Assembly: GCF_000007925.1 (NCBI RefSeq)
Contig: NC_005042.1
Location: forward strand, 1,674,001 to 1,738,000
Direction of reading: 5' to 3'
Source: Prochlorococcus marinus subsp. marinus str. CCMP1375
GTDB taxonomy: Bacteria; Cyanobacteriota; Cyanobacteriia; PCC-6307; Cyanobiaceae
DNA: 64,000 bases
Part shown: positions 61,798 through 64,000 of the stretch, in pieces
Layout: every line of letters starts with the position of its first letter
How positions within the stretch are numbered: the first letter of the stretch is position 1
The notes under the pieces: model-generated
What the model was told of the DNA's origin: nothing
Database searches by the model: none
The model's input: only the letters and a program-made list of their open reading frames with translations
Translations under genes and position numbers: made by a program

Positions 61798-62700
61798 ATG
61801 GAACAACTTATAAAAGGACCAATTAATGGAGAGACAAGCCTGGTAGGGGTTCTTGGATGCCCCGTAAAGCACTCATTATCACCAATAATTCAAAATGCTG
61901 CTCTAAAAGAACTTGGTTTGAACTGGTGCTATTTAGCAATTCCATGTAAACCCCAAAATTTTGAATTAGTCATCAAAGCTTTACGAACAATTAATTGCAA
62001 AGGATTAAATATAACGATTCCTCATAAAAATATAGCTCTTGATGTATGTGATGAACTAAGTAGTATTGCCAAACAAATTGGAGCAGTAAATACATTAATT
62101 CCAAGCAAAAGAAAAAACTGGTTTGGAACCAATACTGATATTGAAGGTTTTCGTTCTTCTTTATTAGAAAGAAAAATAAATTATGAAGGGAAAAACGCAA
62201 TAATAATAGGTACTGGAGGCAGTGCAAAAGCTGTATTACATGGTCTGGATACTTTAAAATTTGGAAAAATAACTATTGTTAGCCGCACAAAAAATTCATT
62301 AAAGAAATTTTTAATAAATAATAATAATCTTTGCACAGAGATTGATGGATTAATTCAAGAAGATTTAACCTTAGAAGAATATATTAAAGCTGCTAATTTA
62401 ATTGTAAATGCAACACCCATAGGTATGGAAAATAAAGCAAATAGTAAAAGCTCTTCGGAAATTCCACTAGGTAAAAGTATCTGGGAAAATCTTCAGCCAG
62501 GGTCAACTTTATACGACTTAATCTATACACCTAAACCTACAAAATGGTTGCAATTAAGTAGAAAATATTCCTGTCATCAAATTGATGGGCTTGAAATGCT
62601 TGTTCAACAAGGTGCATCCTCTCTTAGATTATGGAGTGGTATAGAAGAGATTCCTATTGATATAATGAGAAAAGCTGGGCAAAAAGCATTATTAAATTAA
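61798..62700 (+). CDS. aroE: Shikimate dehydrogenase
   Basis: AroE reduces dehydroshikimate with NADPH. The 300-residue protein has the shikimate-binding SLSPIIQNAAL, the catalytic LNITIPHK (Lys) and GAVNTLI, FGTNTDIEGF, and the NADP loop IGTGGSAKAVLHGL. The C-terminal DGLEMLVQQGA is typical. It pairs functionally with the DAHP synthase at 50418 and PabB. The start ATG at 61798 lies seven bases after the last T-run of the divergent gap; a second ATG is not near. Confidence 0.96.
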   Translation: MEQLIKGPINGETSLVGVLGCPVKHSLSPIIQNAALKELGLNWCYLAIPCKPQNFELVIKALRTINCKGLNITIPHKNIALDVCDELSSIAKQIGAVNTLIPSKRKNWFGTNTDIEGFRSSLLERKINYEGKNAIIIGTGGSAKAVLHGLDTLKFGKITIVSRTKNSLKKFLINNNNLCTEIDGLIQEDLTLEEYIKAANLIVNATPIGMENKANSKSSSEIPLGKSIWENLQPGSTLYDLIYTPKPTKWLQLSRKYSCHQIDGLEMLVQQGASSLRLWSGIEEIPIDIMRKAGQKALLN

Positions 62701-62704
62701 TCCT

Positions 62705-63163
62705 ATGATTACAATCTTAGACAAAATTATAAGTGTATTTTTATATATGCTTCCTTGGAGTGATGCACTTAAATACGGAAATAATATTTTCCAAAATTTC
62801 CCATTATCAAAGATTTTTATAATACCTACATTGCCAATATTTATTATTGAAAGAAGTCTCCCTATTGGAAGTTTTCTAGTATTTCTATTGCTTTTTATAG
62901 GGATAGCAAAAAATCCAAGAGTTTCATATTTCATAAGATTTAATGCTATGCAGGCACTTCTACTAAAACTAATTCTAATAATCTTTAACTATCTAGAAAT
63001 CTTATTCATTCAATTATCTGGAAGTTTTTTCAGACTTGATATTCTAGAAATAATAATATTTATAAGTAGTCTTGCGATAGTAATTTATGCAAGCACCCAA
63101 TGTATAAGAGGAATCGAACCAGATATTCCAGGAATTAGTGCTTCAGCAAAAATGCAGATTTGA
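62705..63163 (+). CDS. Tic20-like/Ycf60 family membrane protein
   Basis: This 152-residue protein has about four hydrophobic helices (residues about 35-65, 70-95, 115-135). The pattern LPWSDALKYG near the start, FIRFNAMQALLLKLI and the charged VSYFIRFNA loop match cyanobacterial Tic20/Ycf60 proteins, relatives of the chloroplast import channel. Bacterial function is unknown. It begins four bases after aroE, so the two are probably co-transcribed. Confidence 0.8.
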   Translation: MITILDKIISVFLYMLPWSDALKYGNNIFQNFPLSKIFIIPTLPIFIIERSLPIGSFLVFLLLFIGIAKNPRVSYFIRFNAMQALLLKLILIIFNYLEILFIQLSGSFFRLDILEIIIFISSLAIVIYASTQCIRGIEPDIPGISASAKMQI

Positions 63164-63244
63164 AGAAAAAACCATATAGGTATAGGATTGAAAGCCCCGT
63201 CGCTCTATTTATTGAGCCTTCAGTCCTAGACGGAAAACACTATT

Positions 63245-63877
63245 ATGTCAGATCCAACCTACTACGAAACCATGTATATCCTCCGTCCAGATATCCCGGA
63301 GGATGAAGTTGAAGGGCATCTTAAGAAATATAGCGAAGTACTTGAAAAAGCCAAAGCTAAAATTATTGATAATCAAATGCGTGGAAAGCGAAGGCTTGCT
63401 TACACAATTGGCAAACATAAAGAAGGGATTTATGTACAACTAAGTCATACAGGGAATGGAAAGCACGTAGAAACTTTAGAAAGATCTATGAGATTAAGTG
63501 AAGATGTAATTAGATATCTTACAGTTAAACAATATGGGCCTTTACCTACAAAGCGAAATACAAAATCACAAGACAAAGAAGCTTCAACAACTAATAATGA
63601 AAACGATACTAAAGAAGTGAAGGAAGCTAAAGATACTAAAGAAGTGAAGGAAGCTAAAGATACTAAAGAAGTGAAGGAAGCTAAAGATACTAAAGAAGTG
63701 AAGGAAGCTAAAGATACTAAAGAAGTGAAGGAAGCTAAAGATACTAAAGAAGTGAAGGAAGCTAAAGATACTAAAGAAGTGAAGGAAGCTAAAGATACTA
63801 AAGAAGTGAAGGAAGCTAAAGATACTAAAGAAGTGAAGGAAGCTAAAGATACTAAAGAAGTTAAAGAGGAAGGTTAA
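63245..63877 (+). CDS. rpsF: Small ribosomal subunit protein bS6 with long repeat tail
   Basis: S6 sits on the platform of the 30S subunit. Residues 1-100 are a normal S6 fold ([57 protein letters not shown]). The protein is 210 residues instead of about 100-130: after a short linker, a Lys/Glu-rich tail made of tandem nine-residue units DTKEVKEAK occupies residues about 121-210. Bacterial S6 tails can be glutamylated by RimK, but this one already ends in EEG. The tail should be intrinsically disordered. The ATG opens [15 protein letters not shown], as in homologues. Confidence 0.95.
63605..63874 (+). repeat. Coding tandem repeat, 27-bp unit, nine perfect copies plus one altered
   Basis: The unit beginning GATACTAAAGAAG and ending GCTAAA repeats every 27 bases from 63605 to 63847, nine identical copies including silent positions; a tenth unit (63848-63874) has diverged (EVKEEG end). 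Copy identity at the base level points to recent unequal slippage rather than selection on each unit. It lies in frame in the 3' part of rpsF. Confidence 0.98.
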
Positions 63878-63893
63878 TCTATATCAATCTTCT

Positions 63894-64000
63894 CTATTTG
63901 TCCCTATTAATTGAAGCCCATAGACGATTAGCAAGGCCCCAAACATAAATAAATCCCTCTGCAGATTTATGATCATATTGATCTTCTGCACTATAGGTAG
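63894..64000 (-). CDS. argG: Argininosuccinate synthase, C-terminal end only
   Basis: The reverse strand encodes the last 34 residues of a gene running off the window edge: [16 protein letters not shown], then [11 protein letters not shown] and INRDK before [17 protein letters not shown] matches the C-terminus of cyanobacterial ArgG, which condenses citrulline with aspartate. It converges with rpsF, with 16 bases between the stops. The start lies outside the window. Confidence 0.85.

Follow-up and report, generated by a model that had tools for sequence, protein, structure and literature searches.

Ribosomal protein bS6 pairs with bS18 on the platform of the 30S subunit, where a C-terminal tail would point near the mRNA exit side. 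In Escherichia coli, bS6 carries glutamates added by RimK. In-frame coding minisatellites (VNTRs), for their part, occur in low-complexity bacterial proteins. According to the accessible parts of two reports, glutamates are added by RimK to bS6 of Pseudomonas as well (PMC7343187, PMC4741518). The accessible text of a study on Mycoplasma pneumoniae reports extensions of ribosomal proteins, S6 included, calls them common throughout bacteria and mostly predicted to be disordered, and states, in its authors' view, that their disruption affects fitness or survival (PMC9534751). For the Prochlorococcus S6 repeat, no description could be recognised from the titles or the beginnings of abstracts of the open-access papers that our searches listed.

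We analysed rpsF of Prochlorococcus marinus CCMP1375, which lies at the end of a window of 64,000 bp (bases 1674001-1738000 of the genome). With the RimK-modified bS6 of Pseudomonas and E. coli it shares extra charged residues at the C-terminus; here, however, the gene itself encodes the tail, whose charges balance, and our searches revealed no RimK. The array resembles coding VNTRs in its unit length, a multiple of three, in the identity of copies at silent sites and in a diverged edge copy, but its host is a core ribosomal protein, and across relatives such arrays recur with different units. A long C-terminal extension is common to this protein and to M. pneumoniae S6, whereas the latter extension forms secondary structure, with a loop traced in the model, and is described in the accessible text without mention of a tandem DNA array (PMC9534751). 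Beyond the known ribosomal extensions, the present case adds one tail that has grown by tandem repeats again and again across relatives, with its charge balance maintained. The repeat in the window is the extreme case of this wider pattern, as many relatives built such tails from different units.

The rpsF gene and its nine-copy array

The product of rpsF was assigned to bS6 by profile search with PF01250 (E 3.8e-27, 95.1 bits against a cut-off of 27) and TIGR00166 (72.3 bits, curated cut-off 42.9, residues ~7-96). The gene is single-copy, with one match in the single-contig genome of 1,751,080 bp. A normal bS6 domain is followed by a tail of 109 residues after the GPLP motif, in the following layout:

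63245..63877, + strand: rpsF, ribosomal protein bS6, 210 aa (profile matches)
63257..63532, + strand: bS6 folded domain, residues ~5-96 (model elements E5-13 to E88-96, pLDDT blocks 85-95; TIGR00166 residues 7-96)
63530..63547, + strand: Q-x-G-P-L-P linker motif closing the conserved part (present in 131 of 150 complete S6 genes)
63548..63604, + strand: start of the tail without repeats, residues 102-120 (sequence reading)
63605..63847, + strand: nine identical copies of a 27-bp unit, each encoding DTKEVKEAK with net charge 0 (TRF and copy-by-copy comparison)
63848..63874, + strand: tenth, diverged copy encoding DTKEVKEEG, 8/27 differences (copy-by-copy comparison), with TAA next
63894..64000, - strand: 3' end of a convergent gene that leaves the window (L030 2150-3325, minus) and that we take to encode argininosuccinate synthase

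TRF reported the array at 63605-63861 with a period of 27, 9.5 copies, 100% matches and a score of 514. The nine exact copies of 27 bp lie head to tail and in frame, as in a coding minisatellite (unit 10-100 bp). The nine perfect copies described in a preceding sequence-only reading were thus confirmed by TRF and by the copy-by-copy check, while its figure of about 90 repeat residues holds only with the degenerate tenth copy included; the repeat proper spans 81 residues. Because 4096 synonymous spellings of one DTKEVKEAK unit are possible, the silent-site identity of the nine copies stems from duplication of the DNA, not from selection on the protein. Beyond these copies the unit had 0 matches at up to three mismatches in the 1.75-Mb genome, and the control, the same pattern read backwards, gave 0 matches too. 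Perfect inner copies next to a diverged edge copy are what one would expect if parts of a short, older array had been duplicated several times. The recent expansion proposed in that reading also fits the comparison with relatives: the nearest S6 genes with complete tails (~79-82% core DNA identity to rpsF) carry other units or lack a strong array, and the array looks young.

Two accompanying features were looked for and rejected. An S6:S18-type leader was not found by Rfam search of 62700-64000 at E up to 5, and the three weak matches obtained near rpsF (16.1-17.7 bits), far under their gathering scores of 56.1-77, were taken as chance. Nor does S18, the partner protein, show a compensating extension: its open frame, of 92 aa, contains nothing long.

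Tandem arrays elsewhere in the genome were surveyed by TRF in 464 kb, comprising the window and 20 evenly spaced stretches. This sample gave 54 rows with a score of at least 40 and 8 with a score of at least 100, the rpsF array being the second-highest; tandem arrays as such are therefore not rare in this genome. The other seven arrays scoring at least 100 include a 36-bp array, two Lys-rich tails, an Asp/His-rich array, a 6-bp His/Asn array and a C-terminal duplication in a glycogen-synthase-like protein. The 36-bp array (L181 6895-7896, genome 621895-622896; ~28 copies, TRF score 1577) sits in a 400-aa ORF that consists of AERKAAADKKAA repeats with a hydrophobic stretch at the end, and L181 8511-8679 holds 2.3 copies of a 75-bp repeat inside a 194-aa ORF. 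At L190 4770-4913, 6-bp repeats encode a His/Asn and then a His/Glu run within an ORF that presumably resembles a CobW-type metal chaperone; the neighbouring ORF (L190 65-1264) has Asp/His repeats. Similar small proteins at L181 14584-15120 and L187 2-454 end in Lys/Ala or Lys/Ser repeat tails, which are strongly basic, unlike the S6 tail. The C-terminal duplication, of 45 bp, was seen at L185 14144-14230 in a 501-aa ORF that we take to be glycogen-synthase-like.

Coding tandem arrays are a general trait of this genome, and it is the protein and the composition that set rpsF apart. Among 458 ORFs from a simple calling script, the charged fraction in the last 60 residues was highest in the rpsF product (0.67; 99.5th percentile 0.48), and only this ORF reached at least 0.45 charged with at most 20% hydrophobic residues in that stretch.

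S6 tails and in-frame arrays across relatives

The S6 core was present in 136/151 genomes of the family and in 94/94 of the more complete ones. Genes from the family search (with 6 of the 136 matched genomes, G084, G092, G106, G119, G125 and G126, left out), a genus search and a named collection gave 155 unique S6 genes after six duplicates had been collapsed. Removal of five open-ended genes left 150, and removal of 19 without the motif left 131. The tails of these 19, measured from another point, have 24-49 aa, and L157 and L160 among them reach p 0.01 in the codon shuffle described below. Genes with a core GC3 below 0.5 were designated AT-rich (n=67; others n=64), a split that, like the score cut-offs, was set after the table had been seen and that falls in a GC3 range (0.446-0.535) empty of motif-bearing genes.

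AT-rich tails comprise 27-109 residues (median 51) with a charged fraction of 0.52, compared with 14-30 residues (median 21) and 0.15 in the other group. The longest tail of all 131 genes is that of rpsF in the window, with 109 residues, and the next have 101, 87 and 86. Tail length drops with GC3 (rho -0.85 over 131 genes, rho -0.43 within the 67 AT-rich ones), a comparison in which GC3 and descent are confounded. In three non-picocyanobacterial genes (L027-L029) with a GC3 of 0.42-0.45 the tail is short, at 24 aa, and base composition alone is therefore insufficient for a long tail.

Tandem DNA repeats with a local score of at least 30 were detected in 20/67 AT-rich tails vs 0/64 others, and shuffling of codons identified repeats at p 0.01 in 28/67 vs 1/64. 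At a score of at least 24 all 23 repeat periods were multiples of three, in the range of 6 to 96 bp; weaker TRF rows in L046, L081 and L089 depart from this, at 20, 8 and 7 bp. TRF at a score of at least 100 placed tail arrays in 20 of the 67 AT-rich loci, 18 of them common to the local-score set, and none in the remaining 228,660 bp of these loci. The window's array scored highest among those compared. Over all 155 loci, arrays outside the tail reached this score in L009, L028 and L111, and the one in L009 (760-934) turned out to be a further S6 tail. It belongs to an inverted second rpsF copy with a Ser-Glu-Ala-Lys repeat tail on this Prochlorococcus draft contig (725-1195), which is probably an amplification chimera.

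The units differ between genes: DTKEVKEAK in the window, KKEEVTKE-type in L045, EDPAKKA-type in L077 and KAESTIED-type in L050. Within the genus of the window, 7 of the 14 genomes searched had an S6 match, and six of the tails are complete. Their arrays differ as well, with periods of 27 bp in the window, 15 bp in G010, 24 bp in G065 and 63 bp in G151, and no array at a TRF score of 100 in the tails of G135 and G153; in the seventh match, G152, the sequence ends inside the tail. Closer relatives differ too: the tail of L015 contains a 27-bp unit in 2.4 copies, whereas L016 and L018, ~96% identical to it in the core, show no TRF row in the tail and are shorter there by 21 bp, in frame. We infer a gain in L015 and not a loss in L016 and L018. 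Their differing units notwithstanding, the repeat tails may have an older shared ancestry. Five of 72 AT-rich S6 loci (L003, L009, L012, L041 and L079; GC3 0.24-0.37) are cut off within the tail by the end of a contig, which indicates that the region is hard to assemble and fits repeats defeating short-read assembly.

Charge, constraint and predicted structure of the tail

The net charge of the window's tail is -1, and AT-rich tails range from -11 to +1 with a weakly acidic median of -4. The sequence-only reading had considered RNA binding by a disordered Lys/Glu tail; with these values, such binding via net positive charge is unlikely. The variance of the standardised net charge was 0.26 in the 67 tails, against a null mean of 0.98 for independent signs; for the 20 repeat tails it was 0.32, against a null mean of 5.1 for random unit signs; 0 of 5000 simulations were as low as observed in either test, with a crude null and tails that are related to each other. 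Charges were better mixed than the median shuffle in 97% of tails and at the 0.05 level in 33%, a regularity that repeats enforce by themselves.

The tail pN/pS in four hand-picked groups was 0.55 (45 pairs), 0.37 (3), 0.29 (1) and 0.66 (3), vs 0.03, 0.08, 0.12 and 0.06 for the core in the same order; only tails of equal length were paired (45/55, 3/3, 1/3 and 3/3 of possible pairs), and the pairs are not independent. These ratios point to a tail that evolves fast, yet under some constraint. No conserved motif beyond GPLP was seen in the tails compared.

AlphaFold2 modelled the S6 domain up to residue 96 (overall pLDDT 70.6, pTM 0.48) and gave no secondary structure after it, with pLDDT blocks of 39-64 beyond residue 100. 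Since the input was an alignment of 18 sequences, low pLDDT is weak evidence of disorder here, and the structureless tail is a low-confidence prediction. A single alpha-helix (ER/K) domain was rejected: no helix is predicted in the tail, and opposite charges are depleted at lags 3 and 4 (opposite-sign fractions 0.438 and 0.425 over 67 tails, 0.416 and 0.423 over the 45 tails that lack strong repeats; expected 0.489).

Glutamylation of the tail by RimK, which had been suggested together with a check for a rimK homologue, is likewise unlikely. Searches with PF08443 and PF18030 found no S6--L-glutamate ligase of the RimK families in the genome. The three PF08443 matches of RimK fold are other enzymes, namely glutathione synthase (389.7 bits vs 272), AccC (774.4 vs 626.5) and PurT (559.3 vs 502.15), and the RimK N-terminal domain PF18030 had no match in the genome, with a profile that matched only 2/14 control genomes.

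Origin and significance of the repeat tails

The arrays recur in AT-rich S6 genes with differing units, and the tails are balanced in charge and under a relaxed, non-zero constraint. Our preferred reading, to which we give a probability of roughly 0.6, is that a tolerated, disordered bS6 tail grows through tandem duplications that recur in frame, and that selection keeps this tail soluble and near neutral. The C-terminus of bS6 in AT-rich Prochlorococcus would accordingly be a disordered, fast-evolving, charge-balanced tail, the DNA of which would be duplicated repeatedly, in tandem and in frame, via replication slippage or unequal recombination. Selection would act as a filter that retains tails which keep the reading frame, remain soluble and unstructured and have a net charge close to zero or slightly negative, and it would be nearly indifferent to sequence and length. 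Any role of the tail would at most be passive, as a bristle that aids solubility or acts sterically at the surface of the ribosome, and the array in the window would be of recent date.

The tail may instead have a selected function, for example in tuning mRNA exit, in ribosome spacing or in hibernation at the 30S platform, with an adjustable array length. We regard this as possible but considerably less probable: charge balance is kept while sequence and length vary and tail pN/pS is below 1, yet lengths of 27 to 109 residues with dissimilar sequences in AT-rich genes, 14-30 residues in the 64 other genes and the lack of a conserved motif beyond GPLP in these tails speak against it. An S6 extension is also present in M. 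pneumoniae, where extension disruption is stated, in the accessible text, to affect fitness or survival (PMC9534751).

A purely neutral by-product is a doubtful account. Mutation pressure towards AT would favour Lys and Glu codons, rich in A and G and prone to slippage, leaving the tail unselected, in line with the decrease of tail length with GC3 in both sets of genes (rho -0.85, n=131; rho -0.43, n=67) and with the arrays in other low-complexity proteins of the genome. However, the underdispersed charge, the tail pN/pS below 1 and a charged fraction that is the maximum of 458 ORFs argue against it. Composition is also not a matter of mutation bias alone, since this genome encodes further repeat tails that are strongly basic or that abound in His and Asn. 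No more credit is due to the bolder proposal that the tail is a charge-neutral polyampholyte bristle under selection, with array length as a rapidly mutating control of how ribosomes behave (crowding, spacing or hibernation) in a cell that is among the smallest photosynthetic ones. An assembly artefact, or an expansion that arose in the sequenced culture, is very improbable: for all the S6 loci that stop inside the tail at contig ends (5/72) and the inverted second rpsF copy in L009, the 257-bp array fits within one Sanger read, the method by which this genome was presumably sequenced, and arrays are also present in the single-contig genomes G010 and G039.

In practical terms, these results suggest that rpsF tails can break draft assemblies and are best removed before marker genes are aligned. 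Slow evolution is commonly gauged by ribosomal proteins, yet the end of S6 has here been rebuilt repeatedly from new tandem repeats with the charge still balanced. The S6 tails thus allow a direct test of whether selection on disordered tails of ribosomal proteins acts on their bulk physical properties rather than on their sequence.
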